A stretch of 64,000 nt of DNA from a virus (IMGVR_UViG_3300035704_000396:1-64000), one strand, 5' to 3'; numbered from the stretch's first letter, positions 211 through 62,385 are shown. Notes: generated by a model from the sequence alone, not told the origin. Translations and numbers: made by a program.

Positions 211-354
211 CGCTCATTCTCACATTCTTTGGTGGTGGTTTTTGGTACTAACACAATTCTATCCAAATAGCGGTGCCCGCACCATTGTTGGTGCGGGCAC
301 GGGCGCTATTTGTTTGTGGAGCGGGCCACACGGGCCAGGCGGGTGCCTGGGGCG
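211..354 (-). promoter_or_regulatory. Promoter and leader block of the gene at 1-210
   Basis: Reading leftwards it holds a TGTGG-N6-CCACA dyad (315-333), a hairpin (273-300, listed separately), a TAGAAT -10-like hexamer (256-261) and the C-rich leader motif (complement of 231-238), whose 3' end is 20 nt before the ATG. Dyad, -10 and leader recur at the neighbouring genes. Confidence 0.5.
273..300 (-). terminator. Hairpin terminator, 12-bp perfect stem
   Basis: GTGCCCGCACCA pairs perfectly with TGGTGCGGGCAC around a 4-nt loop. It lies just downstream of the gene ending at 355 on the minus strand. No U-tract, as is usual in actinobacteria. Confidence 0.65.
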
Positions 355-780
355 TCAGGTCCGGGGGCTGACCAGGTCGGTCACCCGGTTGGCGTTGATC
401 GTGTAGACCAAGGCCCGGCTGTCGAGGCCGCCCATCGAGCAGGCGACCTCCAGTGCCCCGTCGTCGTAGCGCCTGGTCACCACGCCGGCCTGGTCGCCGT
501 ATTCGGGGTCGTGCATGACCACCTGGGCGCCGCGTTGCGGTGCGGACCCGGTGGCCGGCGCGGTGGTGGCCTGCACGGCGTGCACAGCCTGCATGGCCTG
601 CGCCCGACGGTCGTTGCACCCTTCGTGGCTGGTGCAGGCGGCGCGGCTGCCGGCCCTGCCGTGCCAGATGCTGGTGGTGTCCGGGTCCTGGCCGCTGGTG
701 CTGGCGCGCACCATCATCGCGGCCCTGGCTGCCAGCACCTCGCGGCCGGCCAGGTCTGGAGCGATCCGGTCGTGGCTCAT
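355..780 (-). CDS. Hypothetical protein, 141 aa
   Basis: Unrecognised soluble protein, start ATG 780 with a good GAGGAAG ribosome site 6 nt upstream. Its C-terminal half (about residues 85-140) reads like a small beta-rich domain; the middle is Ala/Gln/Thr-rich and contains a Cys pair. It is a single-gene unit: leader motif and -10 upstream, hairpin downstream. Confidence 0.6.
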   Translation of the reverse strand: MSHDRIAPDLAGREVLAARAAMMVRASTSGQDPDTTSIWHGRAGSRAACTSHEGCNDRRAQAMQAVHAVQATTAPATGSAPQRGAQVVMHDPEYGDQAGVVTRRYDDGALEVACSMGGLDSRALVYTINANRVTDLVSPRT

Positions 781-879
781 CGCTGCTTCCTCGCAGTTTC
801 TGTGGTGGTGGGATTGTGTCGCTATTTCAATTCTAGCTAAATGACCGTGCCCGCACCATGAATGGTGCGGGCACGGGCG
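781..879 (-). promoter_or_regulatory. Promoter and leader block of the gene at 355-780
   Basis: Contains the leader motif (complement of 804-812), 23 nt before the ATG, and a TAGAAT hexamer (830-835). A dyad copy TGTGGAGCGACTCACACGG (889-907) sits just upstream, inside the 3' end of the next gene. Confidence 0.5.
845..876 (-). terminator. Hairpin terminator, 15-bp perfect stem
   Basis: Arms 845-859 and 862-876 are perfectly complementary with a 2-nt loop. It lies 4 bp past the stop codon of the HAD-like gene and shares its stem sequence with the hairpin at 273-300. Confidence 0.65.
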
Positions 880-1464
880 CTATTTGTTTGTGGAGCGACT
901 CACACGGATTCGGTCGTCGCGGTGGCCTCCTGGTGCAGCTGGGGCGACGCTGGCCCAGGCCCGGATGAACGCCAGGTGGTCGGCGAGCAGGCCGTGGTGT
1001 TCGTTCACGTTGACCAGCAGGGTGCTGTGCCCCTGTGCGGTGCGCTGCGCGGCCCATAGGCCGTCTCGGGCCTGGAACTGGTCGTCCAGCCACACCAGAG
1101 GCCGTCCGGCCGCCCCCACGGCCGCTGCGGGCTGCTTCCAGTGCACCCCGTTGGTGTGCTCGCCGACCGGGCCGACGTCGATCACCGGCAGCACGGGCAA
1201 CCCGATAGACGGCCCGATCCAGACGTTCGCCTCGTGGTTCCAGCTGGTCAACCAGACCAGGTCAGCCGCGAGGTCGGCGGCCAGCTCCAGCAGTGTCGCG
1301 CCGTGGCCGGGGTGTAGCCACACGTTCAACGGCCGGCGCGGATGGGCCCACGGGGTGCCGACCGGATGGGTCGCCACCCGCCGGTAGCCAGCCGCCTTCT
1401 TCGAGGGCTGACCGTATGGCGCCAGCACCCCGTCGACGTCGAGCGCGATCACCAACCTGGACAT
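880..1464 (-). CDS. HAD-superfamily phosphatase-like protein
   Basis: 194 aa. The N-terminus carries HAD motif I: D9 and D11 in ALDVDGV. Motif II is the Thr/Ser of LTSWN (about 73-74), a Lys near 110 can serve as motif III, and motif IV is WLDDQ (127-128). Such short cap-less HAD proteins are common in actinomycetes and their phages; known members hydrolyse small phosphoesters, but the substrate here is unknown. ATG 1464 has a GGGAGAAGG ribosome site. The last residues (RSTNK) are encoded by a copy of the repeated TGTGG dyad, shared with the tail of the gene at 1-210. Confidence 0.8.
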   Translation of the reverse strand: MSRLVIALDVDGVLAPYGQPSKKAAGYRRVATHPVGTPWAHPRRPLNVWLHPGHGATLLELAADLAADLVWLTSWNHEANVWIGPSIGLPVLPVIDVGPVGEHTNGVHWKQPAAAVGAAGRPLVWLDDQFQARDGLWAAQRTAQGHSTLLVNVNEHHGLLADHLAFIRAWASVAPAAPGGHRDDRIRVSRSTNK

Positions 1465-1542
1465 GGAGCCTTCTCCCTTCGGTGGTGGGGGTATGAGAGT
1501 GGGTGGCCGGCCCGCACCCTGTTGGGTGCGGGGCCGGGCGGG
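1465..1542 (-). promoter_or_regulatory. Leader motif and terminator between two cassettes
   Basis: Leader motif (complement of 1481-1489) 16 nt before ATG 1464. The hairpin CCCGCACCC-TGTT-GGGTGCGGG (1511-1532) is the likely terminator of the next gene upstream. I see no clear -10. Confidence 0.5.
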
Positions 1543-1920: not shown

Positions 1921-1942
1921 GGCTGTCTCTCGCATTCTTTGG

Positions 1943-2045
1943 TGGTGGGGTTTCGTGGAACTACCATTAGTCTATTCTGCGGGACCGCTAATAACCATTC
2001 AGGATCGAGGAAGTCACGCTATTGTTTTGTGGAGCGGGCCACACA
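1943..2045. repeat. Direct repeat of a promoter-leader block, copy 1
   Basis: About 100 bp matching 2574-2676 at roughly 80% identity by eye. It contains the leader motif (1941-1949), TAGACT -10 (complement of 1969-1974), a TTATTA hexamer 14 nt upstream of it, and a TGTGG dyad (2028-2045). It is the promoter of the gene at 1543-1920. Confidence 0.75.
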
Positions 2046-2549: not shown

Positions 2550-2573
2550 GTCGTTCTCGCATTCTCTGAATGG

Positions 2574-2676
2574 TGGTGGGGTTTCGTGGAACTACCATTA
2601 GTCTATTCTGCGAATCCGCTGATAACCATTCGGAATCGAGGGAATCGCGCTATTTGACTGTGGATCGGGTCACACG
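2574..2676. repeat. Direct repeat of a promoter-leader block, copy 2
   Basis: Second copy of the block at 1943-2045. It has the leader motif (2572-2580), TAGACT (complement of 2600-2605), TTATCA 14 nt upstream, and a dyad TGTGGATCGGGTCACACG (2659-2676). It drives the gene at 2151-2549. Confidence 0.75.
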
Positions 2677-3059: not shown

Positions 3060-3277
3060 GGTGGGGCTCGCATCCTGCTGTGGTGGTGGGACTGCTGTGG
3101 TGGTGGGAGTGGTGGTGTGGTGCAATACCATCAGCCTATCCACAGTGGACACGCCTGGCCAGTGAATACAGCCCCGGAACGCCCGGATTGACTGTGGAGC
3201 GGACCACACGGCCGCCGGCTCGACCACAATCACCCCGCCCCTCGAGCTCAATCCGCTGCGCTCGCGCCGGCTCGACC
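3060..3277 (-). promoter_or_regulatory. Promoter region with two leader motifs and operator dyads
   Basis: Two leader-motif copies in tandem (complement of 3082-3090 and 3099-3107), a TAGGCT -10 (complement of 3133-3138) overlapped by the palindromic TCCACAGTGGA, and a dyad TGTGGAGCGGACCACACG at 3193-3210. The TCCAC-N-GTGGA element recurs near another -10 at 52343-52355. Confidence 0.5.
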
Positions 3278-3589
3278 TCAGTCACCGGTCGCCGGCTGCG
3301 CTGTGGGTTCGTCGGCGTTGTCATCCGGCACGCTCACGGGCCAGCGCTGTTCGATTTCGTCGGCGATGGCGCGCAGCAGTCTGGCCAGCGGCAGGCCCCA
3401 GTCGCCCGCGACTACCTCGTCGCCGCTGGCCGTGAGCGTGCCGACGTCCTGTGCGGACAGCGTGCGGCCGTCGCCGTCTTGGGCGTGCAGGTGCACGGTG
3501 ATGCTCAGTCCGCCCGGTTCGCCGTTGTCCATGTCGGCGGGCTCGACGACGTCGTCTGGGCCACGTGTTCCGTCTGCTGGTTGGTCCAT
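3278..3589 (-). CDS. Hypothetical acidic protein, 103 aa
   Basis: Acidic, with a central part reading as a beta-hairpin plus helix (VHLHAQDGDGRTLSAQDV, then LARLLRAIADEIEQRW). ATG 3589 has AAGGACAGG upstream. No family recognised. First gene after the virion operon; the 121 bp to the next gene contain nothing I can name. Confidence 0.55.
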   Translation of the reverse strand: MDQPADGTRGPDDVVEPADMDNGEPGGLSITVHLHAQDGDGRTLSAQDVGTLTASGDEVVAGDWGLPLARLLRAIADEIEQRWPVSVPDDNADEPTAQPATGD

Positions 3590-3710
3590 GTCCTGTCCTT
3601 GTCGGATGTGCGGGAACTTGGCGGGGTGGTCGGCCCGCCATGCAGGCGCCGGCGGCCTGGCGCGGGTGGTCAGCCCCTGTTGGGAGTGTCGCTGTCGGTC
3701 GGCCGGGTGG

Positions 3711-4142
3711 TCAGGCCGCGAGGGTGGTCACCGGCCAGGGCACGGTGTCTCGCATCGAGGACGTCAGGAACGGGTTGGGTGGGATGCCTCGGACCTGCTT
3801 GGCGAATATCGGTGTGGAGCTGCCGTGTGGCGTCCACACCAGGTATTTCCCGTTGCGGGGCCGGATCGGGCCTCGGCCGGCGTACACGCCGGTGCCCTGG
3901 TGCACGTAGATGGCTTGTGGCGCCGAGGCGTAGAGGCGGCCGCGGACCACCAGGCCGCCCGAGGTGACGGTGAATCCGATGGAGGCACTCAGTTCGCCGG
4001 TGTCGACGGGGGCGCGGGTGCGGGCCAGGCTGGCGGCGCGCTGGCAGTAGTTGGTGACCCGTCGGGTCACCGGGCCGGCCGGTGACCCGAGCAGCCACCG
4101 AATGTTGGGCAGGTTGAGCCTGACCCTGGTGAATCCGATCAT
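3711..4142 (-). CDS. HK97-gp10-like tail-completion/minor virion protein
   Basis: 143 aa. The central pattern, RAPVDTGELSASIGF followed by a beta-rich stretch and HQGTGVYAGRGPIRP, then an aromatic/basic segment and PPNPFLTSSM, is the layout of HK97 gp10-type proteins that join the head-tail connector to the tail tube. ATG 4142 overlaps the upstream stop by 4 bp (ATGA) and has GGAGA upstream. It lies last in the operon after the lysis genes, an odd position because gp10 genes usually sit between connector and tail tube. Confidence 0.7.
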   Translation of the reverse strand: MIGFTRVRLNLPNIRWLLGSPAGPVTRRVTNYCQRAASLARTRAPVDTGELSASIGFTVTSGGLVVRGRLYASAPQAIYVHQGTGVYAGRGPIRPRNGKYLVWTPHGSSTPIFAKQVRGIPPNPFLTSSMRDTVPWPVTTLAA

Positions 4143-4396
4143 GGCAGTCTCCGGGGCGGTTGGTCGCGGTGTTCCAGCGGTGTCCAGCGGGGCACGGTGG
4201 CCAACTGGTCGGCCAGGTGTGGGCCCAGTTCGGTGTCGCCGCCGGCGGCATAGTGTTCTGCCAGGTCGACCATGGTTTGCACGGCGTCGCGGTGCGAGGG
4301 GTGGCTGGTCTCGTCGGCGGTCGGCCGGAACCCGAACGGCGGGCGGGTGATGGTCCATTGCCCGTCGCGTTTGGTGATCCTCGGCTTCCCGCGCAC
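4139..4396 (-). CDS. Hypothetical protein, 85 aa
   Basis: I chose the GTG at 4396, which has AGGAG 7 nt upstream and falls just after the preceding gene's stop; the longer frame would overlap that gene. Begins VRGKPRITKRDGQWTITRPP, then a helical C-terminus (DAVQTMVDLAEHYAAGG). The short Lys/Trp/Thr beta segment at the start is typical of small phage proteins. Function unknown. Confidence 0.6.
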   Translation of the reverse strand: MRGKPRITKRDGQWTITRPPFGFRPTADETSHPSHRDAVQTMVDLAEHYAAGGDTELGPHLADQLATVPRWTPLEHRDQPPRRLP

Positions 4397-4406
4397 CCGG
4401 CCGCTC

Positions 4407-4664
4407 CTATCGGCTGTCGCCGTCGCGGGCGACGGTGTGCGGGTGGTGGCGGCCGGTGTAGGGGTCGCGGACCACGACGGCGCCGGCGTAGTGGCGGCCG
4501 CAGCCGAACCATCTGGGCCGGCGCAGCTCAACCGCCAGGCACAGGCACAGTGTCAGGATGATGCCGAGGGCGGCCAGGGCGAGCTGGTGGCGGCCCAGCA
4601 GGCCGATCAGCATCAGGCTGGTGGCCACGGCCATGACCGTCACCACGGCGAGGCGGCCAGCCAT
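4407..4664 (-). CDS. Small membrane protein with two predicted spans
   Basis: 85 aa, hydrophobic segments at about residues 5-25 and 27-46, then a basic Cys/His-containing tail (RRPRWFGCGRHYAG). ATG 4664 overlaps the upstream stop as TGATG, so it is translationally coupled. Size and position in the lysis region fit an accessory holin or spanin-like role, but no signature proves it. Confidence 0.6.
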   Translation of the reverse strand: MAGRLAVVTVMAVATSLMLIGLLGRHQLALAALGIILTLCLCLAVELRRPRWFGCGRHYAGAVVVRDPYTGRHHPHTVARDGDSR

Positions 4665-5053
4665 CAGGTGGCTTCCGGCCAGTGCCAGGTGCCGCCGGCG
4701 TGGCCGACCTGGTCAAGCTGTGCGGTGGCGACGAAGGCGCCGCTGTCGGTGACGATGTGCAGGGTGAGGCCGGTGTCGTCGAAATGCTGGGCCACGGTGC
4801 GGGTGCCGTCGCCGTTGTCGGTGACCTGGTCGTCGATCCAGGCGCCCACGACGACGATGTCGGCGGGCCGGCAGGTCGAGGGATATTGCTGGGTGCCGTC
4901 GGGTCGCACCGGGCTGCCCATGGATTCGTAGTGGACGCGGTCGCCGACGGTCGGGGTGGGCAGGACCGGGTCGGTGGTGTCGCCGGGGTCGACTGCCGGT
5001 GTCGGGTCGACTGCCGGTGTCGGGTCGACCACCGGGGGCTCGGCGGGTGGCAT
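4664..5053 (-). CDS. Hypothetical Pro/Asp-rich virion-region protein, 129 aa
   Basis: N-terminal 35 residues are a Pro/Val/Asp linker with a duplicated VDPTPA unit encoded by two perfect 18-bp repeats (4987-5022). The rest is a small beta-rich domain. ATG 5053 has AGGAG 11 nt upstream. No family recognised. Confidence 0.6.
   Translation of the reverse strand: MPPAEPPVVDPTPAVDPTPAVDPGDTTDPVLPTPTVGDRVHYESMGSPVRPDGTQQYPSTCRPADIVVVGAWIDDQVTDNGDGTRTVAQHFDDTGLTLHIVTDSGAFVATAQLDQVGHAGGTWHWPEAT
4987..5022. repeat. Two tandem 18-bp repeats inside a coding region
   Basis: Unit GGTCGACTGCCGGTGTCG occurs twice without a gap, adding six residues to the Pro-rich linker; a site prone to slippage. Confidence 0.8.
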
Positions 5054-5057
5054 GGGG

Positions 5058-5486
5058 TTACGTGCTCCTTTTCAGGCGGGTCGGATCGGCCAGCGGGTGC
5101 GCGCCGGTGGACCGGCCGGCTCGGCGCAGCTCGTACACCGATTCCAGGTTGACCCGGAAGGCCAGGCTGATCAGCGGTGCCAGGGCGGCGACGGCGACGC
5201 CGATCTGGTCGGCGGGCAGGTGCAGGCGGAACGCGGCCGCCGCGGTGGCGATGGTGGTGGCCGCGCCGGCGAGCACGGATACCGCGACCGGTCGGGCCCG
5301 GATCGCCGTGTAGATGGAGGCCGCCGCGGCGAACGCGGTGACCAGGGCCGCGGTGCGCACGTCGCCCAGGTGCAGCACGTCACCGACCAACGCGGCCGCG
5401 CCGCCGTTGACCAGCCACGCGGTGGCGGCCGGTTCGGTGGCCAGCCATCGCCGCAGCGCGGCCCAGAAGCGTTGCAGCCAGCTCAC
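5058..5486 (-). CDS. Holin-like membrane protein
   Basis: 142 aa with hydrophobic segments at about residues 21-38, 45-62, 67-88 and 95-110, a basic amphipathic N-terminus (WLQRFWAALRRWL) and a basic C-terminal tail. It lies directly downstream of the lysin-like gene, overlapping it by 4 bp. Size, topology and pairing with a lysin fit a phage holin, which would release endolysin through the membrane. Holins share little sequence, so this rests on context. Confidence 0.6.
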   Translation of the reverse strand: MSWLQRFWAALRRWLATEPAATAWLVNGGAAALVGDVLHLGDVRTAALVTAFAAAASIYTAIRARPVAVSVLAGAATTIATAAAAFRLHLPADQIGVAVAALAPLISLAFRVNLESVYELRRAGRSTGAHPLADPTRLKRST

Positions 5487-6490
5487 ATGCCACCATCCGG
5501 CCTGTCGTCGGTGTCGGTGTCGTCGGGGGCGGCGTGCCGGCCGCCGACCGGTCCGAGGTTGACATCGCGCAGCAGCGTGCGGCCCACGGCGTGGCGGACC
5601 TCGGCGGGCTGGTCGGCCAACGCCGCGTGGATCGGCGAGATGATCAGGCCCAGGTGGTCCGGGGACAGGGTGTGGCCGGCTTCGGCTTGCTGGCGGCCGG
5701 TTTCCAGCGCACCCAACAGGTCGGCGGATGCTTCGGGGAGGGCGCCGGCCTGGGCGGCCAGTAGCGCTTTGATCGCGTTGACCGTGCTGGCCGTGTTGAG
5801 CAGGTCCAGCGCCATCGGCCCGGCGGTGTTGACCCCGCCGACGCCGCGTTGGTAGTCGCGCAGCACGAACCCGACGGTGTCCGGTTTGGGGTTGGGTGGG
5901 ATGGGGGCGGCCAGCATCTGTTCAGGGGTCATGTCGTCCTCCGGTGGTGTGGGCGGTGCGGGCGGTGCGGGGTCGACGCCGGGCCAGTGGGCGGACACGG
6001 CGGACGTGTCGTAGCGGTCGTTGGAGGCGTACTGCTTGGCCACGGACACGAACGTGCCGTGGGTGAGAAGCCCCGGTTTGCCGTCGTATTCGGCGATCCA
6101 GTAGTGCGGCTGCGCGACTTTCGCCTTGGCGAACGCGGCGATCACGTCGGGCCAGGTGGACAGGTTGCAGTACACGGTGGGGTCGGCGCCGCCACCCCGG
6201 CGCATGGCCACCCAGCCCGGCGCCTGCGCCGGGGTGGCGTCGCCGCGTTCGACGTCCAGGACGTGGCCGTCGTTGGTCGCGGCCTTCTTGACGATCCGGA
6301 CCAGCCGGGTCGACCCCGGGAACAGCTTCCAGTCCGCTGTGGACCAGGGCGCCAGGTGGATCTTGTCGGCGTAGCCGGCCACCAACGCCGGCGCCGGGCT
6401 GCGCGGGATCAGGGACGCGGTGACCGCGTCGAACATGGTGCGCAGGGCGGCACTGCCCGCTGGTGGCACCAGTTCGGTGGTCGCGTTCAT
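5483..6490 (-). CDS. Endolysin-like protein with GH25-type hydrolase domain
   Basis: 335 aa. Residues about 38-170 match the GH25-like domain of actinophage lysins: AGYADK at the first strand, a basic strand, then DGHVLDVERGDATPAQAPGW, which carries the acidic Asp-x-Glu pair, then YCNLSTWPDVIAAF and HYWIAEYDG. These enzymes cleave the glycan backbone of peptidoglycan. The C-terminal half (about 190-335) is Pro-linked, helical and without a recognised binding domain. ATG 6490 overlaps the upstream gene by 4 bp and a holin-like gene follows. A structural, tail-tip lysin role is also possible. Confidence 0.75.
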   Translation of the reverse strand: MNATTELVPPAGSAALRTMFDAVTASLIPRSPAPALVAGYADKIHLAPWSTADWKLFPGSTRLVRIVKKAATNDGHVLDVERGDATPAQAPGWVAMRRGGGADPTVYCNLSTWPDVIAAFAKAKVAQPHYWIAEYDGKPGLLTHGTFVSVAKQYASNDRYDTSAVSAHWPGVDPAPPAPPTPPEDDMTPEQMLAAPIPPNPKPDTVGFVLRDYQRGVGGVNTAGPMALDLLNTASTVNAIKALLAAQAGALPEASADLLGALETGRQQAEAGHTLSPDHLGLIISPIHAALADQPAEVRHAVGRTLLRDVNLGPVGGRHAAPDDTDTDDRPDGGM

Positions 6491-6819
6491 GCGGGCACCC
6501 ACTTTCCGTCGCGGATCCAGCCGTGGCTGGGGCAGTGCCGGCAGGCCAAGCTGGGGGTGATGGTCAGATGCGTCTCGTCGCCGGGTCCGCCGGCGACCAG
6601 CTGGTGACGGGCCACCCATTCCGGCCGCTTGCCGGGCACCGCCGGGGCCGCCACCCAGGCGATGTAGCCGCCGCAGTACTTGGCGGTGGGCGTGGCGTGC
6701 GGGCCCGGCGGGTGGTGTTCGATCAGGCCGACCACGCGGCCGTCCTGTTCGGTCCAGACGAACGAGTGGCCATCGCCCAGGTCGTGTTCGTGGTCGCGGG
6801 CCAGGTAGGTGGTCGGCAT
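6487..6819 (-). CDS. DUF6527-like small protein
   Basis: 110 aa with a His-rich N-terminus, a central aromatic/Gly part and a C-terminal CxxCPSHGWIRDGKW, which resembles the ending of DUF6527-type phage proteins (short beta-rich, metal-ligand tail). Function of that group is unknown. It lies between the papain-like protease and the lysin. Confidence 0.5.
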   Translation of the reverse strand: MPTTYLARDHEHDLGDGHSFVWTEQDGRVVGLIEHHPPGPHATPTAKYCGGYIAWVAAPAVPGKRPEWVARHQLVAGGPGDETHLTITPSLACRHCPSHGWIRDGKWVPA

Positions 6820-6834
6820 GTCAGGCCGCCCTGC

Positions 6835-7575
6835 TCACATCACCGGTTGGACGACGTCCCCGCCCAGATGCAGCAGCAGGTCGACCTGGTCCCAGGTGAA
6901 CGTGGCCGATCCGCCCACCGCCCAGGCGTCGCCCCACGAGTTGTCCATCTTCACCTTGCGGTTGGCCACGTCGATCGCCGAGCACACGAACTGGTGGCCC
7001 CCGGCCAGGCCGGAGTCCTGGTCGACGTCCATCGACCCGTCCGAGTTGGGGGTGAACATGGATTGGAACCAGGGCACCCCGAACGACACCGGGCCGGCGA
7101 CCAGCAGTTGCAGCATCGTGTTCAGGTCGGTGGTGTGCTGCCAGGAGGTGATCCACCCGTTGCGCTGCAACGCCATCATCGACCACGGCCCGGACGATCC
7201 GGTGTCGGTGGGCGGGTAGTGGCCGGGGATCTGCGAGTCGTCGATGCGGGTTTCGAGTTCGTACAGCGAGACGCAGGCCGGTTCGGTGAAGTTCCATCCG
7301 GTTCGGTGGTAGGGCTCGGTCATCAGCACGCCCAGCGCGCCGTTGGCGGTGCAGGAGCCGATCTTGCCCTGGTTCCAGATGGTGGTGAGCCGTTGGTGGG
7401 CGGCGTCGGCCAGTTCGGCGTCGCCGTCGCGTTGGGCGGCCAGTTCGGGCAGCAGCAGCTGGTGCATCTGGTGGCGGCCCAGCCGGAACGGGTTGGTCGG
7501 ATCTTCCAGCAGCACCCGGAACAGCGGGTTGCGCGGCGCCTCGGTGGCCTGCTCGGTCGTGTCGGTGGACATCAT
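6835..7575 (-). CDS. Papain-like (C1 family) cysteine protease
   Basis: 246 aa with all C1 catalytic residues in order: Gln69 and Cys75 in NQGKIGSCTANGA, His194 in AGGHQFVCSAID and Asn212 in MDNSWGDAW. It is shorter than classical papain proenzymes and has no obvious signal peptide or propeptide; residues 1-55 could act as a short pro-segment. Set among tail, lysis and lysin genes, likely roles are processing a virion protein or cutting peptide cross-links at entry or exit. Start ATG 7575 (or 7572) lies downstream of AGGAAGGG. Confidence 0.85.
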   Translation of the reverse strand: MMSTDTTEQATEAPRNPLFRVLLEDPTNPFRLGRHQMHQLLLPELAAQRDGDAELADAAHQRLTTIWNQGKIGSCTANGALGVLMTEPYHRTGWNFTEPACVSLYELETRIDDSQIPGHYPPTDTGSSGPWSMMALQRNGWITSWQHTTDLNTMLQLLVAGPVSFGVPWFQSMFTPNSDGSMDVDQDSGLAGGHQFVCSAIDVANRKVKMDNSWGDAWAVGGSATFTWDQVDLLLHLGGDVVQPVM

Positions 7576-7600
7576 TGCTGGTGGGGCCCTTCCTGTCGGG

Positions 7601-8206
7601 TTACTGGCAGACGGTGCGCGGTGGCGCCGGGTAGGGGTGTTCGGCCTGCTGTCGTTTCAGCGCGGCCCGTTTGGCCTGGTACTGGGCGATGGCCCGTTGG
7701 AAGTCGCCGGCGCCGACCTGCCCGCCGTGCAGTGCCGCGCCGACCGCGGTGACCAGTTGGTCCAGGGCGTCCTGCGCGGTGGCCGAGGCCGTGGAGCGGG
7801 CGTCGATGGCGTCGGCCAGCCGGTTGCTGTAGCTGGACTGGCAGTGGGTGAGCCGCTGGGTGGCCTGGCCTTCGACGACGCCTTGGGCGACGGTGGCGAT
7901 GGCCAGCAGCAGCACCACGATCGCGGTCATCCGCTGGCTGGTGACACGGTCCAGGCGGCGGGCCCAGCGCCGGGCCCGCCGCTCTGGCTGCGGCGGCGGC
8001 GATGCTGGCGGCTGGTCGGGCGTGGATGGCATGTCAGGGCCTCCGCTGGCGTGCCCGGGTCGGTCCGGTGTGGTCGGCGGTTCGGGTTGGACGGCCTGGG
8101 CGATGTGGCGGACGTCGCGGGCGGTGCGGCCCACCACCAGGCCGCCGACGAACCCGGCGCCGGCCCAACCGGCCGACTGGACCAGGTAGGCGATCGGGGC
8201 GGTCAT
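7601..8206 (-). CDS. Membrane protein with cytoplasmic loop, lysis region
   Basis: 201 aa with an N-terminal hydrophobic segment (about 5-27), a Pro-rich basic linker, a second span (about 96-113) and a helical C-terminal domain with two Cys. Start 8206 overlaps the upstream stop (ATGA). No family recognised; a spanin- or tail-associated membrane role is possible. Confidence 0.55.
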   Translation of the reverse strand: MTAPIAYLVQSAGWAGAGFVGGLVVGRTARDVRHIAQAVQPEPPTTPDRPGHASGGPDMPSTPDQPPASPPPQPERRARRWARRLDRVTSQRMTAIVVLLLAIATVAQGVVEGQATQRLTHCQSSYSNRLADAIDARSTASATAQDALDQLVTAVGAALHGGQVGAGDFQRAIAQYQAKRAALKRQQAEHPYPAPPRTVCQ

Positions 8207-8592
8207 CACCGCTCCCCCACGTCATCGGCGGTCTCCTGGCCGGGTCGAGCGCCGGGCCGATCGCCCGGTGGGTGTTCGGGTGGGTGTTGGCTGTGGTTGC
8301 GGGTGGGCGGGTCGCTGCTGCGCCGGTGCGGATGGCGCTCCGGGCCGTATGCCTCCGCCGGTTCGTCCGGCTCGTCCTGGTCGCCGGCGATGAGCCGTCC
8401 AAGTCGCCGGCGCGCGTCCTTCAATCCGTCCTCGCGCTTTCCCACTGCGAAGACGGCACCCACCGCCAGCGCGAAGACCGCGTTGATGCTGGGGTCGTGC
8501 CGGCTGGGGTCGATGAAGCCGATCACGACGTTGCCGGCCCATACCGCCGCGATGAGCAACGTCAGCGCGATCATCAGCGGTCGCGGCAGCAT
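8206..8592 (-). CDS. Two-span membrane protein, holin candidate
   Basis: 128 aa; spans at about 7-27 and 35-52 separated by a short loop (FIDPSRHDPS), then a basic helix and a disordered His/Pro-rich tail. Two close spans and a charged tail are typical of class II holins, and it is one of three such proteins in this block. Confidence 0.55.
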   Translation of the reverse strand: MLPRPLMIALTLLIAAVWAGNVVIGFIDPSRHDPSINAVFALAVGAVFAVGKREDGLKDARRRLGRLIAGDQDEPDEPAEAYGPERHPHRRSSDPPTRNHSQHPPEHPPGDRPGARPGQETADDVGER

Positions 8593-8598
8593 GGCCGG

Positions 8599-8898
8599 TC
8601 ACCGCCGCCGTCTGCGGTGGGCGACCACGACGGCGACCAGACCGAACGCGATTCCCGTGCTGTTGAGCCACAACCGGTAGGTCACCGGCGCGCCGACGTG
8701 TGTCCATTCTGTGCCGATGGCACTGGCACACAGCAACGCCAGCGCCAGGTAGCCCAGCCGCAGCTGCGGTGTCGTGTCCTCCGGGTCGATGAGTCTTGCC
8801 CCAGCCCCGGCCGCCAACATGCAGCCACCCAGCACGCAGAACACACGCAGCACGTCGGCGAAGGCAAGCCACGGGGTGGCGAACGGGGTGTGGGTCAC
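8599..8898 (-). CDS. Three-span small membrane protein
   Basis: 99 aa; hydrophobic segments at about 10-34, 46-63 and 77-94, ending in a run of Arg. GTG 8898 is preceded by GGGAGGAACCC, a strong ribosome site. First gene after a strong hairpin, so it probably starts a separate lysis transcript. Confidence 0.6.
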   Translation of the reverse strand: MTHTPFATPWLAFADVLRVFCVLGGCMLAAGAGARLIDPEDTTPQLRLGYLALALLCASAIGTEWTHVGAPVTYRLWLNSTGIAFGLVAVVVAHRRRRR

Positions 8899-8942
8899 CG
8901 GGTTCCTCCCGGATCGGGACGGGGCACAGGCGGGTGTCGACG

Positions 8943-8976
8943 GCTGCCCAGGCCGGGGATGGCCGGCCTGGGCAGC
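8943..8976 (-). terminator. Strong hairpin between connector and lysis genes
   Basis: GCTGCCCAGGCCGG (8943-8956) pairs perfectly with 8963-8976 around a 6-nt loop. It lies in the 105-bp gap after the connector-type gene ending at 9004 and could separate or attenuate lysis expression. A CCCACCACC string (complement of about 8979-8989) lies just upstream of it. Confidence 0.65.
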
Positions 8977-9003
8977 GTCCTGGTGGTGGGCGGTTGTGCA
9001 CGG

Positions 9004-9870
9004 TCACCGGCCCACCCCCGCCGGCGGCGGGCCGGCCCGGCCGCTCGAAGCGGGGGTGGGCACGGTGACCGTGGCGGTGGTGGTCGCCGAGTGGTCGCCG
9101 ATGTCGGTGAGGGTCACCGTGTAGGTGCCGGCCGCGGTGTAGGTGTGCTGCACCGGCAGCGGCACGACGGCCGTGTCCACCATGTTGGTGTCGCCCCAGT
9201 GCAGTGCGGCGCCGTAGGCGCCGAACCCGGCCGGGGTGACGGTGACCGTCATCGGGTCGCTGGTGGAGGGTTGCACCGTCAGGCTCAGCTGCAGCGGGCA
9301 GCAGTTGCCCCGCACCAGTTGCGCGGTCAGCACGGTGGCGGCGCAGCCGCCGTCCGGGCCGTCGTGGTGCAGGCTGACGATCTGCCAGTTGACGCCCTGT
9401 TGGCCCAGCGGGCCGCACAGAAACGCCCGGTGCAGCGCCATCGCGTCCTGCACCATGCCGAAGGCGTACCCGTCGACGGTGGCGACGTCCGGCGCGGCGG
9501 CGGTCGGGTCCAGGGTGGGGGCACAGCGGTGCACCCCCAACTCCACGGTCAACAACAATTCGCCGGTGTTGCAGTTGCTGGGCACCCGGTTCAGACCGGA
9601 CACCCCCAGCTCTGTGGTGGCATTGGTCATCCGCAGCCACGCCGAGCCCTGCCCGGCCGGCTGGGACGGGTCGTCCTCGCAGGTGCAGTCGCACCAGTCG
9701 GCCGGCATCGGGGTGTTGCCGGCGTAGATGACGAACACGCACACCGGCCGCTGGCTGATGCCCAGCTGGGCGGCGGCGGACAGCCGCAGCTGTTCCAGCA
9801 CGGGCCACAGCACCGGTTCGGTGTCGGCCATGGTGGGGGCGTCGGCCTGGTCGGGCGGGCCGGCGGTCAT
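9004..9870 (-). CDS. Neck/connector-type virion protein with C-terminal PKD-like domain
   Basis: 288 aa. The N-terminal part (about 1-205) has many Cys and short beta segments and resembles neck/connector proteins found beside this type of capsid gene in actinophages. The C-terminal part (about 207-275) reads as a PKD-like fold: an ALHWGD strand followed by VQHTYTAAGTYTVTLTD, ending in a Pro-rich tail. PKD domains are surface-exposed and often bind glycans or proteins. ATG 9870 overlaps the upstream gene by 4 bp. Confidence 0.65.
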   Translation of the reverse strand: MTAGPPDQADAPTMADTEPVLWPVLEQLRLSAAAQLGISQRPVCVFVIYAGNTPMPADWCDCTCEDDPSQPAGQGSAWLRMTNATTELGVSGLNRVPSNCNTGELLLTVELGVHRCAPTLDPTAAAPDVATVDGYAFGMVQDAMALHRAFLCGPLGQQGVNWQIVSLHHDGPDGGCAATVLTAQLVRGNCCPLQLSLTVQPSTSDPMTVTVTPAGFGAYGAALHWGDTNMVDTAVVPLPVQHTYTAAGTYTVTLTDIGDHSATTTATVTVPTPASSGRAGPPPAGVGR

Positions 9871-10856
9871 GGTGTGCTGTCCGGGGTGTAGACGCCGGTG
9901 GTGGCCACCGACACCGGGCCGGGCAGGTCCGGGGAGTAGACGGCGGCCGGCGAGCGGTGCCGGTAGGGGTTGGCCGCCACCACCCACAGGTCCACCTCGG
10001 TGATCCCCGTCCGCCCCTCGTCCAGGAAGGACTGCGGGTCGATCTGGTAGGACACGCCCTGCCGTTGGATTTCGGTGACCCGCGCGGTGATCCGGCAGGC
10101 GGCGCCGGTGCACGCGGCGACCAGTTCGGCGGCGAAGATGGCGGCGGCGCGGCGGCCGCCGGTGGGCACCGGGTGGCCCCGCCAGAAGCTGATGCCGAAC
10201 GTGCCCTCCTGCGACAGGGGCCGGTCCAGGTGTTGGCTGACCGGCCAGCGGCCGCCGTCGGTGCGGCCCAGCCGGTCGCCGTTGCCCAGCCACAGCAGCG
10301 TTTCGTCGACGGCCAGGCCGTCGACGGTGACGGTGATGCCGCAGCGGGGCATCCCGTCGGGGGCGGGCGGCGTGTCGGGTGGCTGCCAGAACACCGGGCC
10401 GGGCAGCGGCACCTGGGCGACCGGGCCGCAGCCGCACAGGTCCGGGTCGGGGTGGTGGCAGCCGATGCGCAGCCACGATTGGCCGCCGGGTAGCGCCGGG
10501 TTGAGGTCCAGGCCCGGCCGCCGGCCGTGGAACAGCCGCGGCGGCCGGCAGGGCCGCACCGTTTCCCGGCACAGCCCGTAGCGGCCGGCGGTCAGGCGCC
10601 ACAGGATCTCGGAGGCGGTTTCGGCGGCGGCGCATTGCACCGCGTTCCAGGTGGCCGGGTCGGCGGGCAGCTGCGAACAGCTGGCGTCCAACGGCCAGGT
10701 CCGGCACGGCCCGCCGGCGGCCGGGTCCAGCGCCCAGGTGCCGTCGGGTTGCAGATCCGGCCTGTTCGGCGCCGGGGTGTCGGTGCGCACCGACCCGGGC
10801 GGGGTGGTGGGCGTCGACGGGGTCCAGCCGGGTCGCCGCCCGGTGGGCCGGGTCAT
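9867..10856 (-). CDS. Head-to-tail adaptor-like virion protein
   Basis: 329 aa, Cys/Trp/Pro-rich. Landmarks include WPLDASCSQLP, then a helix with SEILWRLTAGRYGLCRETVRPC, the pattern of actinophage head-tail adaptor proteins that follow the major capsid gene, and a C-terminal part beginning IQRQGVSYQIDPQSFL. Overlaps both neighbours by 4 bp. It would attach the tail below the portal; the portal gene itself is not in this window. Confidence 0.65.
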   Translation of the reverse strand: MTRPTGRRPGWTPSTPTTPPGSVRTDTPAPNRPDLQPDGTWALDPAAGGPCRTWPLDASCSQLPADPATWNAVQCAAAETASEILWRLTAGRYGLCRETVRPCRPPRLFHGRRPGLDLNPALPGGQSWLRIGCHHPDPDLCGCGPVAQVPLPGPVFWQPPDTPPAPDGMPRCGITVTVDGLAVDETLLWLGNGDRLGRTDGGRWPVSQHLDRPLSQEGTFGISFWRGHPVPTGGRRAAAIFAAELVAACTGAACRITARVTEIQRQGVSYQIDPQSFLDEGRTGITEVDLWVVAANPYRHRSPAAVYSPDLPGPVSVATTGVYTPDSTP

Positions 10857-12981: not shown

Positions 12982-12993
12982 CGGCGTGGCGCC

Positions 12994-15297: not shown

Positions 15298-15464
15298 CGT
15301 GGGCCTCCCAGACGCACACAGGAACGAGTGTGTGCATCCGGTCACGGTCGCCAGGCGATGCGAAAAGGCTGTCACCGACCCGCTGCGGGGTTGGGTTGCC
15401 TCGTCGCGGAGGATAGCCGCGACCCCCGCACCGGGCGAATCACCCCAGGTCTGACGCGCCGGGT

Positions 15465-15734: not shown

Positions 15735-15738
15735 GTCC

Positions 15739-22315: not shown

Positions 22316-22604
22316 GCTACCGGCACACCTTGGTCGGAGCGTCACGATAGCCGATCGGCCCAGTTGCGACTGTGCAACGCGGGTGCGTCGACGGCACGAT
22401 TCGGCTACATCGAGCCCCGCGGCGTCGCCGCCGACCGGTTGAACGCATGCAGGTCGCCAAACGATCAACCCATCGGGTACCCTTGGCGACGCCACCGTTC
22501 CGTGCCTTCTGGGCGCGAACATTTTCTCGCTTTGGTGGTGGGAAAACAGGCAACCGGGCCCCCGACCTCTGGTCGGGGGCCCGGCTTGATGTCCAGCCGA
22601 CGGT
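22316..22604 (-). promoter_or_regulatory. Leader region upstream of the partition locus
   Basis: Reading leftwards: a terminator (22554-22584), the leader motif CCCACCACC (complement of 22534-22542) and an ATG at 22522 with GCGAGAA before it. The frame from that ATG runs through the parS sites and has poor third-position GC, so I do not call a gene; it may be a leader or a short peptide. Confidence 0.4.
22554..22584 (-). terminator. Terminator of the XRE/DUF6879 operon
   Basis: CCGGGCCCCCGACC (22554-22567) pairs perfectly with 22571-22584 around TCT. It follows the stop of the XRE gene at 22605. Confidence 0.75.
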
Positions 22605-24243: not shown

Positions 24244-24484
24244 CAGCGTGTCTCCTTCCAGTCCTGCATATACCGCATATGCGCTGATGCTAGCCGTGCG
24301 GCTGCCCGGCCAGACCCCCCGCGAACTGTTGTCGCAGGTCAACGAGCCTTCGTCAGGACCAGTGTTGCATATTCACGTATATTCACGCTACCGTCTCGTG
24401 CACGGGCGTGCACGAGACGTCACCACGGATCGGGCCCGCCCCACCCACCACCAAGCAGGAATCCGCCGAGGCACAGGAGGATCG
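24244..24484. promoter_or_regulatory. Divergent promoter region of regulator and transfer operons
   Basis: Leftward side: GCATAT-ACCG-CATATGC (about 24267-24283). Rightward side: a direct repeat of ATATTCACG (about 24369-24387), a possible TTGCAT/TACCGT promoter pair with 18-nt spacing, the perfect palindrome at 24392-24419, then the leader motif (24444-24452) and AGGAGG before ATG 24485. Confidence 0.55.
24392..24419. promoter_or_regulatory. Operator palindrome at the transfer promoter
   Basis: CGTCTCGTGCAC-GGGC-GTGCACGAGACG, 12-bp perfect arms, overlapping the putative -10. A dimeric repressor bound here would shut off transfer genes, as KorA/TraR-type repressors do on other actinomycete plasmids; no such regulator is identified here. 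Confidence 0.7.
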
Positions 24485-29892: not shown

Positions 29893-29940
29893 GCCCGGAA
29901 TCAGCCGAAACCCACCACCAGGCTTGGAAGGGAGGCCCGC

Positions 29941-32882: not shown

Positions 32883-32932
32883 TCATCCGAGTGTCGGCAG
32901 CCGCTGTTTCCCACCACTAGCAGGGAGTTCCC

Positions 32933-34306: not shown

Positions 34307-34356
34307 CCGACCCACTGGGTCGGGTGTCATTTCCCACCACCACTGAAGGAGAACCC

Positions 34357-36099: not shown

Positions 36100-36140
36100 T
36101 TTCGGTCCCTTTGGTGGTGGGTTTGGTGGTGCTTCGCCGG

Positions 36141-37324: not shown

Positions 37325-37489
37325 GGCACCCCCTTTGGGCCGGGGCGGCGGCCCGGGCCTGTCCGTGGTGGTGGGAAAGTGTGCCCGCGCGGGGCGGGGC
37401 ACACGGACGGGCACGATGGTCGCCGCGGTGGCGGCGGTGGGGCCTCGGCTCGATCGGGGGTCCAAACCGAGGCCACACCACCCGTCGGG

Positions 37490-48292: not shown

Positions 48293-48337
48293 GGGGTTCC
48301 TCGCGTGGTGGTGGGAGTTGGTGAGCGTGGTGGGATT

Positions 48338-48753: not shown

Positions 48754-48784
48754 CGACATATCATGATCCTATCATGATATGTCG
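48754..48784 (-). promoter_or_regulatory. 31-bp palindromic promoter-operator
   Basis: CGACATATCATGA (48754-48766) and its exact complement (48772-48784) flank 5 bp; the TAGGAT -10 of the gene at 48338 lies within (complement of 48766-48771), and CTATCG stands 14 nt upstream. The same CATGATAGGAT core recurs at 58626 and 62174. Confidence 0.65.
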
Positions 48785-51301: not shown

Positions 51302-51402
51302 CCCAACCCCTCCTATCTCCGTCTTATCGCGACGATATCATGACGTGAACATGGCCGGTGACGCCGCGACTGGCCGGTCGCCGCGCCACCGCCTCCGTGC
51401 CG

Positions 51403-52236: not shown

Positions 52237-52414
52237 GCGGTCCTCGCTCATCTGGTGGTGGGGCTCCCGGCCCGGGTCGCTCCCACGTGATCCCGGGCGG
52301 AGGGTTGTGGTGAAGTGGAACAAGATCATTCTAGCAATCTGAGTCCACTGTGGACCACAAATGGGCGTGGTTGATCCGCAGGTCACACAACGGTTTCCGC
52401 CGCCACCAACGACC
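52237..52414 (-). promoter_or_regulatory. Promoter region of the DUF2786 gene
   Basis: Leader motif (complement of 52254-52262) 17 nt before ATG 52236; TAGAAT -10 (complement of 52328-52333); palindrome GTCCAC-T-GTGGAC at 52343-52355. Confidence 0.55.
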
Positions 52415-53579: not shown

Positions 53580-54257
53580 TCACTTGGTGGTGGGGTAGTC
53601 GGCCGCCCAGGCGCGCAACCGTGCCCGTGCGTTGGCCGCGATCCGGTCCAACGTCTCGGCGTGCATCGGCACGCCGTGCAGGCGCACGGTCCAGCCACGG
53701 CGCACCCGGGCGGCGTAGATCCGCATCCGCCACGCCTCGTCGGCGGCCCGCAGCATGGTGCGTTGGGCGCTGGTGCGGCGCCGCCGCGTCGGGATCGGCC
53801 AGGGATAGCCGGCGTCCCGGATCATCGCCAGCTTGGCCGGGAACGCGCCGCGTCGGCGAGGCACGGGCACGGGTGCGGCCGGGTGTGGTCGCGGTGCCAG
53901 GATCTTCGGTTGCGGGGCGGCCACCGGCCGTGCAGGCAGCCGTGCAGGCGGTGGTGCCGGCGGTGGTGGTGGCTTGGTCGGGGCGTCGGGCCGCGGTGGC
54001 GCCGGCGTGGCCGACTCCTGGTGCGGCTGCGCCGATGTCGGCCCGACCGGTTCGCGCTCGGGCGGCCCAGCGGGCGCCGGGGCGGTGCACAGCTGGCGGC
54101 ACGACCGGCACATGCCGTCGTCCACGTCGAGGTGACGTATGTCCAACAGCCGCCGGTCCTTCGCGCATACCTGGCACAGGCCCAGCTCGTCGGCCTGGTC
54201 GCCGGCGTGGAGTACCAGCTGCGTGCTGGCCGCCGGTGGGACGTCGTGGCCGGCCAT
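53580..54257 (-). CDS. Hypothetical protein with zinc ribbon and a repeat shared with its neighbour
   Basis: 225 aa. Two CxxC pairs (LCQVCAKD, MCRSCRQLC) around 27-56, a long Pro-rich linker, then a C-terminal domain (about 145-220; KLAMIRDAGYPWPIPTRRRRT, shortened, VRRGWTVRLHGVP) homologous to the C-terminus of the next gene upstream. ATG 54257 overlaps that gene's stop. Confidence 0.6.
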   Translation of the reverse strand: MAGHDVPPAASTQLVLHAGDQADELGLCQVCAKDRRLLDIRHLDVDDGMCRSCRQLCTAPAPAGPPEREPVGPTSAQPHQESATPAPPRPDAPTKPPPPPAPPPARLPARPVAAPQPKILAPRPHPAAPVPVPRRRGAFPAKLAMIRDAGYPWPIPTRRRRTSAQRTMLRAADEAWRMRIYAARVRRGWTVRLHGVPMHAETLDRIAANARARLRAWAADYPTTK

Positions 54258-54727: not shown

Positions 54728-54815
54728 CGCTTTTCCTTTGGTGGTGGGAAAATCCGGCGTCACCGCCGGGGTCGTGGGTGCCGGCGTGGCAGGCCCGCCG
54801 GCGGGTCGGTGCTGC

Positions 54816-56332: not shown

Positions 56333-56410
56333 GGTCGGTCCTTCGGTTTGGTGGTGGGGGTCGCGGGCCGGCGCCGGCCACCCGAGGTCATGTGGCCGGC
56401 GCCGGGGGTC

Positions 56411-57516: not shown

Positions 57517-57558
57517 CGGTGCCTCGCTTGGTGGTGGGGTGTGGTGGTGGGTGTTGGG

Positions 57559-57978: not shown

Positions 57979-58009
57979 CGGGTTGTCCTCGCTTGGTGGT
58001 GGGTGGCGG

Positions 58010-58579: not shown

Positions 58580-58711
58580 GTCTGTCTCCTGTGGAGTGTG
58601 GTGGTGGGGTGGAACAGATACCATAATCCTATCATGATCACACGCAGATAGACGGCGCTGATTCTACGAGGTTGCGCGGCTGGATGTGATGTGCACCAAC
58701 AAAAGCGCTGG
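58580..58711 (-). promoter_or_regulatory. Promoter with CATGATAGGAT core
   Basis: TAGGAT -10 (complement of 58626-58631) preceded 14 nt upstream by CTATCT; leader motif complement of 58600-58608. Same core as 48766 and 62174. Confidence 0.55.
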
Positions 58712-60103: not shown

Positions 60104-60131
60104 GGCGGGTTCTCCCTGGGTGGTGGTGGGG

Positions 60132-60773
60132 TTAGGACCGGCCGCCGCGGTGGGCGGCGACGAGCAGGCCGTCAGCGGCGACGGTGAACCGGGCGGTGTA
60201 GCCGATCTCGCCGTAGCCTTCGTCTTCGCGGGTCAGGTTCACCGTGTACAGGCGGCGGCAGCGGCAGCAGGCGGCCAGGCGGGGAACGTCGGCCAGGGCC
60301 GGCAGTCGCACCGCCCGGTCGCAGCAGGGCAGTTCGGCGAGCACGAACCGGCCGGTGCGACCGTGGGCGTCGGCTTCGGTCCACCGGTCGGCGCTGTCGC
60401 CGACCAGCAGGTCGTCCAGGTCGCCGACGGTGACGGCGGCGGCGATGTGGCGGTAGCGGCGTGGCTGCGGATCCTGGTGGGCCAGCCGGTGGGTGGCGGC
60501 GTCGTCGGTGTCGATGACCACGTCGGTCCGCACCAACACGTGACTGTCGAGCGACACGGTGCGCACCACCCGGTCGAACAGGGAGGTGCGCAGCTGGAAG
60601 TGGACGCGGTCGCTGGTTTCCTGCACGTGCTGGACCACGGCCCATTCGCCCAGGTACGAGGCGAGCATGCCGACCTTCAGGTCGGTGGCCGGAAGGTGGT
60701 CGGACTGGGACGGGCCGCCGTCCGGCCCGGCCTGTTGCAGGCCGGGCACGGCGTCGGCCGGCAGGGTGATCAC
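60132..60773 (-). CDS. Hypothetical Cys-containing protein, 213 aa
   Basis: GTG 60773 overlaps the Spo11-like gene's stop. Central helix-rich part, a Cys cluster ELPCCDRAVRLPALADVPRLAACCRCRR, abridged, and a C-terminal beta part. Not recognised; may be a partner of the upstream protein because the genes are coupled. Confidence 0.55.
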   Translation of the reverse strand: MITLPADAVPGLQQAGPDGGPSQSDHLPATDLKVGMLASYLGEWAVVQHVQETSDRVHFQLRTSLFDRVVRTVSLDSHVLVRTDVVIDTDDAATHRLAHQDPQPRRYRHIAAAVTVGDLDDLLVGDSADRWTEADAHGRTGRFVLAELPCCDRAVRLPALADVPRLAACCRCRRLYTVNLTREDEGYGEIGYTARFTVAADGLLVAAHRGGRS

Positions 60774-61762
60774 GAGTCACCCCGTGCTTCCAGCCAGGCG
60801 ATGACGTCGCCCCAGCGTTCACGCACCGCCACCAGGTCGGACCGCTCGGCCTCCATCGCGTTGGTGGACGCCGCCCACTGGGCCTCGTCCCGGTACTGGG
60901 CGACCGCGTCACGGATCAGCCCGTCCAGCACAGTCGGGTCCAGCGCGTCCAGCTCCCACGACTCGCCGCCGTAGCGGGCGATGTAGCCGGTGGCCCGCGA
61001 ATCGGTCAGCTTCGCCGGGTTGGGCGGCGGCTGGAACTGTTGGATCTGCGCCATGTTCAGCGCGATCCGCACCACCTTGGTGGAGGCGCCGAACAGGGTC
61101 AACCGGTCGGTGACGTCGCGGGTCATGTCCACACCGGACGGGTCGTGGTCGCCGAGGTGGATCACCACTACTTTCTGCCCGCGCCGCTCATAGCCGATGT
61201 GCCGACGTGCCGCAGCCCACAGCTCGGACTGGCTGGTGTAGCCACGGCAGGAGAACCACGGCACGTCCAGCGCTTCAGCGGTCCGGCCGATCACGCCGGT
61301 CAGGGCGTCCTTCTCCACCCAGACCTCCACCCGGTAGGGCTGGTGGGCCCACCGGTCGGTGCGGTACTGGGTGGCGACCGCGTCGATGATCGATTCGGGG
61401 TCACGCCAGTGCGCCAGGTCGCGCAGGTTGCGGGTCCGGTCGACCAGGTGGTCCCAGTCCATGACGCCGGCTAGCCGCGCGTCGTTGACCAACGAGCCCA
61501 GCCACTTGTAGTTGGGGTCGGCGTTCTTCGTCGACGCCGGGTTGGTGTGCTCAGGATCGGCGATCCACTTGCGGCTGTTCTCGTTCCACCAGAACCAGCG
61601 TGCCTCCGGGAAAATGTCCCTAGAAATGAACTGGTAGTAGAGCTGCCGCAGCGTCAGGTCGAAGCCCTGGGCGGCGTAGTCCTGGCAGACCGCGTCAGCC
61701 AGGTCGATGACCGCGCGGCTGCCTGCCGAGAACCGTCTTTCGACGTAGGTGATGCGTGGCAC
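60770..61762 (-). CDS. Spo11/topoisomerase VI A-like protein
   Basis: 330 aa from GTG 61762. The 5Y-CAP-type winged helix carries the catalytic Tyr in TLRQLYYQFISRD (Tyr42/43). The TOPRIM part has EKDALTG (Glu about 148) and HLGDHDPSGVDM (DxD about 202-204). Topo VI A normally works with a GHKL ATPase B subunit, which I do not see here. Stand-alone A-like proteins (Topo mini-A type) are known from mobile elements. It could cut, resolve or recombine element DNA. Confidence 0.85.
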   Translation of the reverse strand: MPRITYVERRFSAGSRAVIDLADAVCQDYAAQGFDLTLRQLYYQFISRDIFPEARWFWWNENSRKWIADPEHTNPASTKNADPNYKWLGSLVNDARLAGVMDWDHLVDRTRNLRDLAHWRDPESIIDAVATQYRTDRWAHQPYRVEVWVEKDALTGVIGRTAEALDVPWFSCRGYTSQSELWAAARRHIGYERRGQKVVVIHLGDHDPSGVDMTRDVTDRLTLFGASTKVVRIALNMAQIQQFQPPPNPAKLTDSRATGYIARYGGESWELDALDPTVLDGLIRDAVAQYRDEAQWAASTNAMEAERSDLVAVRERWGDVIAWLEARGDS

Positions 61763-62130
61763 TAGCCCGCCTTCCTGTCCTGGCCGGCCCGGGTGATGCG
61801 GCGGGCGCGGCGGGGCTGGGGGACGGCGGTGCGGTCGGTGCGGCGCGTGTGCAGCGGCCCGAACACGCCGTTCTCGTCGGGGGCGAACCCGAGGTGCTCG
61901 GCGGTCACCGTGACCAGGGAGGTGCCGGGCATGCCGAACCGGTCGCGGATGAGGGCGGCCAGGCCGGTCAGGGTGGCGCCGGGGCCGGCCAGGGTGCTGG
62001 CGACCAACGCGACCACGTCGGTGGCCCGCTGCGGGTCCAGGGCAGGCCGGTGCGCGTCGACCAGAAGGTCGGCGACCTCGGCGTGCAGGTCGCGGTCATC
62101 GGTGGGCCGCAGCCCACTCACGGTGATCAT
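61762..62130 (-). CDS. Hypothetical helical protein, 122 aa
   Basis: Helices ATDVVALVASTLAGPGATLTGLAALIRDRFGM and a basic tail (RRARRITRAGQDRKAG). ATG 62130 with CCAGGAG upstream; stop overlaps the Spo11-like start. Not recognised. Confidence 0.6.
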   Translation of the reverse strand: MITVSGLRPTDDRDLHAEVADLLVDAHRPALDPQRATDVVALVASTLAGPGATLTGLAALIRDRFGMPGTSLVTVTAEHLGFAPDENGVFGPLHTRRTDRTAVPQPRRARRITRAGQDRKAG

Positions 62131-62385
62131 GGGTTGGCTCCTGGTAGTTGTCAGGTGGTGGTGAACTACCGACATCCTATCATGATCTGTCCGCGATAAG
62201 CAGGAGATAACACGTCGATCGGGCCGTGTTTGCCGACACCAGGACACAGGTCCGGGCCCGATCGTCAGGCCGCTGTACCGGGCCCGGCAGGGCAGTTGTC
62301 ACCGCGCGGTGGGCACCGCGTGCGCGGTCGGCGGGGCCGCCGCACGCTGCGAGGTCGGCGCAGCGGCGGTGTGGCCGGCCGGCGG
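62131..62385 (-). promoter_or_regulatory. Promoter region of the Spo11-like operon
   Basis: Leader motif variant GGTGGTGGT (62154-62162), TAGGAT -10 (complement of 62174-62179), TTATCG 14 nt upstream of it. The remaining 180 bp hold nothing I can name. Confidence 0.5.

Follow-up and report, generated by a model that had tools for sequence, protein, structure and literature searches.

The results described here reveal that a tag of nine to ten letters, CCCACCACCA, stands before about two dozen genes of an IMG/VR virus record (IMGVR_UViG_3300035704_000396; 70,650 bases, 72% G+C) and is a genuine start-locked signal. The window analyzed comprises bases 1–64000 of that record, whose last 6.65 kb were read separately as one stretch, and the element resembles a phage-plasmid from a GC-rich actinomycete. 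The motif keeps a characteristic position and orientation relative to gene starts, is specific in sequence, recurs in a diverged relative, and has its slot taken by other words in further relatives. We propose, with a probability of roughly 0.45, that CCCACCACCA is a lineage-specific start-associated leader sequence, which would act in the messenger RNA (mRNA) at translation initiation, probably via a sequence-specific factor. The evidence throughout is that of sequence, and the gene starts are our own calls, made by a dynamic programme using codon usage and the Shine–Dalgarno sequence (SD).

There are 35 copies of the word CCCACCACC in the window, compared with 3.14 expected from dinucleotide shuffles (shuffle maximum 8); the word precedes 20 called starts, where its frequency elsewhere predicts 0.38. 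It is also the top non-SD word in a de novo k-mer count upstream of starts (~1e-27; in-gene null runs reach only ~1e-5), and when up to one mismatch to CCCACCACCA is allowed, 24 of 103 upstream windows match, compared with 5 of 510 in-gene sense windows. Across the 70.65-kb record, 22 of the 27 intergenic copies of CCCACCACC lie 10–32 nt before a start codon, whereas random intergenic placement puts 3.7 ± 1.8 copies there (maximum 11 in 5000 trials); all but two of the 27 are oriented with a gene starting within 60 nt, and by the nearest-gene rule one is antisense. About nine motif copies of the record lie within genes. The positional enrichment reported in an earlier note on this DNA, made from the sequence alone, thus persists against composition, permutation and placement controls.

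That note had described about 24 marked starts, those of the first genes of translation units, and our own gene calls put nearly all of the sites it listed at the same coordinates. From the motif end to the start codon the distance over 23 starts is 11–32 nt (mean 18.4, standard deviation 4.8), usually 11–24 nt with a single 32-nt case at start 24485; the range given earlier was 12–24 nt, but for one. The SD lies in between, as had also been stated; it directly follows the motif on the 3′ side and is separate and variable. Genes said to be coupled indeed lack the motif, which precedes 1 of 28 overlapping genes vs 14 of 24 genes that follow a gap of 21–100 nt, and the virion operon is likewise free of it, no genuine start-linked copy being present in the virion genes at 3278–20184 (a copy before the called start 10790 is probably in-gene). 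Motif-bearing starts are ATG in 21 of 23 cases, compared with 45 of 83 other starts (p = 0.0012). Among the listed copies, three proved to be one-base variants (231, 62154 and 32910) and one (33659) a weak match; the list was incomplete, missing the copy at 22534, one beyond the window and the doubled copies at 46063, 46027 and 57543. The sites are as follows.

231..239, minus strand: motif variant ACCACCACC, 20 nt before ATG 210
804..812, minus strand: motif, 23 nt before ATG 780
1481..1489, minus strand: motif, 16 nt before ATG 1464 (HAD_SAK_2 domain protein)
1941..1949, minus strand: motif, 20 nt before ATG 1920
2572..2580, minus strand: motif, 22 nt before ATG 2549
3082..3107, minus strand: two motifs (3082–3090, 3099–3107), the nearer 22 nt before ATG 3059
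8982..8990, minus strand: orphan sense copy, then a 14-bp GC hairpin (8943–8976); no start link
22534..22542, minus strand: motif, 11 nt before ATG 22522
24444..24452, plus strand: motif, 32 nt before ATG 24485
29911..29919, plus strand: motif, 21 nt before GTG 29941 (FtsK/SpoIIIE-like ATPase)
32910..32918, plus strand: one-mismatch motif CCCACCACT, 14 nt before ATG 32933
33659, plus strand: weak match CCACCAACTA, listed in the earlier note
34333..34341, plus strand: motif, 15 nt before ATG 34357
36113..36121, minus strand: motif, 13 nt before ATG 36099
37367..37375, minus strand: orphan sense copy, any plausible start at least 40 nt away; no start link
46027–46035, 46051–46059 and 46063–46071, minus strand: three motifs before ATG 46026
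48307..48315, minus strand: motif, 14 nt before ATG 48292 (GmrSD_C/HNH-like protein)
52254..52262, minus strand: motif, 17 nt before ATG 52236 (phrog_421; other words before the G002 and G004 orthologues)
53586..53594, minus strand: motif, 21 nt before ATG 53564, within the 3′ end of the preceding gene
54740..54748, minus strand: motif, 12 nt before ATG 54727
56350..56358, minus strand: motif, 17 nt before ATG 56332
57530–57538 and 57543–57551, minus strand: two motifs in a 42-nt gap before ATG 57516
57995..58003, minus strand: motif, 16 nt before ATG 57978, in a 31-nt intercistronic gap
58600..58608, minus strand: motif, 20 nt before GTG 58579 (phrog_421 paralogue), downstream of a promoter-like ATCATGATAGGAT box
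60122..60130, minus strand: motif, 18 nt before ATG 60103, in a 28-nt gap
62154..62162, minus strand: motif variant ACCACCACC, 23 nt before ATG 62130, whose gene opens the Topo mini-A operon
Beyond the window: motif copy before ATG 65171

GC hairpins adjoin motif copies both in the window (8943–8990) and in the relative G007 (19976–20031, L203/L204), where two copies flank one hairpin.

Relatives were found in IMG/VR by alignment of the major head protein, and the whole records, which may be fragments, were then read for start words. Applied to phage Anaya, this search finds its known start-associated sequence (SAS) and ESAS again and so has a positive control. Conservation in related elements, on which the earlier note had made the standing of the motif depend, holds in part: the same motif is present in one diverged relative, two others have different words, and none was detected in the rest. 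In G007 (59 kb, head protein 41% identical), the same word was found de novo in ten exact copies, six of them 14–21 nt before starts, often as GACCCCACCACCAGG. The words that occupy the same slot elsewhere, in sense orientation and 5′ of the SD, are CCAGTTGAG in G002 (91 kb, head protein 67% identical) and CCCGGATG(A), that is, the word CCCGGATGA, located 13–23 nt before starts in G004 (65 kb); not all of them are A/C-only, and both are statistically weaker, with the best non-SD k-mers at ~1e-7 to 1e-9 vs nulls at ~1e-5. Three further records (G001, G005 and G008) are too short to judge for a start word. Word identity does not follow head-protein similarity, G007 being more distant than G002 yet carrying the same word, and exchange or convergence could lie behind the word shared with G007. 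More distant virion relatives carry repeats of other kinds: the SD-containing GGAGCAACC with GGATAAA in G016 (L233–L235), 45 copies of ACTAAAC, mostly inside the palindrome TTTAGTNACTAAA, in G035 (L342–L344), the palindrome CTAGTAACTAG with GAGAGAGAG in G043 (L354–L356), and the start-associated repeat GTTACACTA in G036 (L345–L347).

As to the level at which the motif acts, copies are found in intercistronic gaps of 28–45 nt, and one (53586) lies within the end of the preceding gene; therefore there is neither room nor need for a promoter of their own. Where promoter-like boxes do occur (ATCATGATAGGAT in the present record, G000, ahead of starts 62130 and 58579, and three GATATGATTAC boxes in G002), the motif is probably within the transcript, because it lies 15–30 nt downstream of them at varying distance. 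These results favor, without proving, an RNA-level start element. Promoter-like (A)TCATGATA boxes precede four leftward units in all (48754–48784, ~58620–58640, 62170–62190 and 51330–51345), three as ATCATGATAGGAT and one as a perfect 14-bp inverted repeat, and eight GATATGATTAC boxes are similarly placed in G002.

We infer that the motif acts in RNA, affects translation and has a reader, in the following form. Lying immediately 5′ of the SD in the leaders of genes that need an independent translation start, CCCACCACCA would probably be the binding site for a sequence-specific factor (a phage protein, a small RNA or a modified host component), and the putative factor would raise or gate the loading of 30S subunits on the tagged mRNAs. 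The A/C-only composition would keep the leader unstructured, and this may be how the motif arose. Several points weigh against this proposal. The motif–start spacing (11–32 nt) is looser than that of the SD; in G003, which has the same virion genes, no such word was detected; part of the motif signal could be convergent, given the general A/C preference described below; and no non-virion protein is detectably common to all four motif-bearing records.

The last point so far lends no support to the suggestion of the earlier note that an element-encoded protein may bind the motif. One family, phrog_421, is motif-led in three of the four records, its orthologue being preceded by CCCACCACC in G000, CCAGTTGAG in G002 and CCCGGATG in G004, and has a weak relative in the Microbacterium phage Quhwah. 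No homologue of it was found in G007, however, and two AlphaFold2 models (pLDDT 68 and 75) gave no significant fold match; KH matches had E values of ~0.2 or worse for both models, which have one helix between the first two strands, with no GXXG seen there. For want of a significant fold match and of a G007 homologue, phrog_421 was rejected as a KH-type reader and is only a lead.

The explanation next in rank to a factor-read leader, though unlikely, is a generic unstructured A/C leader with no reader: in high-GC phages a G/U-free tract 5′ of the SD would serve ribosome access, and in this element one copy would have spread by duplication and recombination. As duplication predicts, the leaders of 1920 and 2549 have a longer identical stretch in common, although the flanks differ between most motif copies. 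A/C runs of nine or more precede 12.0% of 1,818 starts in other high-GC viral loci vs 3.5% in coding sequence, the commonest being CACCACCCC, CCCACCACC and CCACCACCC, with CCCACCACC before 1.4% of these starts; this diffuse preference suggests a possible origin of such a word. Motif starts are also predicted to be more accessible than other starts (0.52 vs 0.41, p = 3e-5), and predicted accessibility drops slightly when random 9-mers take the place of the motif (0.523 to 0.498, p = 0.018). Permuted A/C 9-mers, however, are equally accessible (0.515 vs 0.523, p = 0.15), yet one permutation is used: among the 36 nine-letter words of seven C and two A, CCCACCACC precedes 20 starts and the overlapping CCCCACCAC nine, whereas each of the others precedes at most two, and at motif-free starts A/C runs are at the coding background (3.7%). 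Because permuted words are as accessible and random ones less so, an unstructured leader could account for the letters of the motif, not for their order. That the words of relatives in the same slot are not all A/C-only also argues against a generic leader, and composition as the full explanation was rejected, only the one word with its overlap being enriched.

Searches also went beyond the virion relatives. A host chromosomal signal was rejected, since CCCACCACCANGCGAGGN{2,9}ATG gave only 25 single matches, all isolated, in 84,980 species genomes, and viral contigs searched with the exact word plus SD yielded only chance matches. Among Mini-A and UvrD-helicase relatives no locus has the motif at this density, Streptomyces-type loci showing the diffuse A/C preference only. 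In four (pro)phage loci of Streptomyces type that encode a similar UvrD helicase (L248, L256, L271 and L282), CACCACC is diffusely enriched before the SD, and the Mini-A relatives L047, L049, L054 and L094 have in common a start-associated word, AACCGAAAGG, that includes the SD; in Quhwah a similar word, CAACCGAAAGG, follows the repeat typical of its cluster EC.

A factor-read leader may be taken further. In each lineage of this family of virion-encoding elements, non-structural genes that are translated independently might bear in their leaders a word of 8–10 nt peculiar to the lineage, read by a fast-diverging element-encoded factor that directs ribosomes to the tagged mRNAs, so as to form a phage-specific initiation code. 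We regard this extension as speculative and fairly unlikely; by analogy, the divergence of word and factor would resemble that of repressor/stoperator pairs splitting into immunity groups.

The stoperators of cluster A phages also inspire a DNA-level alternative, which we judge unlikely, namely that the motif is an asymmetric operator at which an element-encoded repressor blocks initiation or elongation. Like stoperators (PMC9283540, PMC5559632), the motif is asymmetric, present in many copies, intergenic, lineage-specific and in one orientation relative to transcription, and the element encodes XRE-type regulators (22605–23450 and 37647–38525). Stoperators, however, are repressor-bound DNA sites (GGTGGMTGTCAAG) scattered with respect to starts, those of D29, our yardstick, falling from −12 to ~1,100 nt from starts (30 stoperator-like sites), whereas the motif is locked at 10–32 nt; the window has no excess of their consensus (5 matches, 3.3 by chance), and an operator would have no need to shun translationally coupled genes or to adjoin the SD. 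Very unlikely is a boundary or recombination sequence, that is, a short repeat kept at gene junctions to aid cassette exchange between related elements: outside the virion operon the motif does mark the boundaries between many small genes unrelated to one another, and in cluster M phages inserted genes arrive with conserved repeat copies (PMC7953290), but the fixed start distance, the fixed side of the SD, the ATG preference and the doubled leader copies are left unexplained. Scarcely credible, finally, is pairing of the motif with parts of the host 16S rRNA other than the anti-SD. Actinobacterial 16S rRNA does have GGUGG-type stretches, but the motif is hardly more complementary to two actinobacterial 16S genes than shuffled motifs are, with the sole exception of a 9–10-nt match in a variable region of one genome, and the G002 and G004 words show no complementarity.

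The element carries genes for ParA/ParB-like proteins, an FtsK/SpoIIIE-like ATPase, a transglycosylase, a UvrD-like helicase and a Topo mini-A-like protein, together with a large HK97-type head/connector block (phrog_859, 777, 779, 792 and 783, and a phrog_5-like gene), whose head genes are in synteny with those of pSTRVI02 from Streptomyces violaceusniger and of a linear Micromonospora plasmid. No tape-measure or tail gene was found among the head and connector genes at 3278–24243 or in the whole 70.65-kb record, which may therefore be incomplete or have lost its tail genes; G002, G004 and G007 have in common additional long genes resembling tail genes. In one 873-residue protein (15739–18360) the N-terminal part matches head-morphogenesis families and the C-terminal part portal/virion-structural families (phrog_859 and others), the Topo mini-A/Topo VI-A-like protein (60770–61762; phrog_6247) has up to 66% identity to proteins of IMG/VR contigs, and no Rfam family is present in the window.

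The motif invites comparison with start-associated repeats, which have been described from several actinobacteriophage clusters since 2011. Its nearest counterparts in kind are the SAS of cluster K mycobacteriophages, a similar SAS in Microbacterium cluster EF and the cluster EC repeat, to none of which a function has been assigned (PMC3203893, PMC11373665, PMC7302621). The SAS is 13 bp long, includes the SD core and lies 3–9 bp from the start, as GGGATAGGAGCCC or GGGAAAGGACCCC (PMC3203893, PMC7302621). Like it, the motif is a short asymmetric repeat that precedes many non-structural genes in one orientation, prefers ATG and is not found in structural genes, and its ~24 start-linked sense copies compare with the ~10–19, in one orientation, of SAS. 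In contrast, it is A/C-only and lies 5′ of a separate, variable SD, 11–32 nt from the start, and the cluster K consensus GGGATAGGAGCCC has no match in the window at up to two mismatches, in keeping with the earlier view of a likeness in kind with a different sequence. The cluster EC phages, such as Quhwah, which shares its virion module with the element (29–50% identity), have an 18-bp asymmetric repeat, TAGACTATAGGTGTAAGC, in ~12 copies, T/A-containing and promoter-like, which occurs in one orientation in small intergenic regions, 21–30 bp before starts and upstream of the ribosome-binding site (PMC7302621). The motif (11–32 nt from starts) is likewise oriented, asymmetric and 5′ of that site, although the consensus has no match in the window at up to three mismatches. 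The inverted repeats of clusters O and EG and the cluster K ESAS (PMC4351075, PMC7302621) are also repeated and intergenic, with many near starts, but they are dyad-symmetric and the motif has no dyad; several relatives (G035, G043) have palindromes instead of it. Since two defining features of SAS are lacking here, and the EC repeat is matched in arrangement, not in sequence, the motif appears to be a new version of the SAS-like start-associated repeats of actinobacteriophages. It is an unusually clean case, with one short word in ~24 copies outside the SD, and the phrog_421 orthologue, whose leader word differs among three related records, provides natural swap pairs for asking if reading takes place in RNA and if the element encodes the reader.

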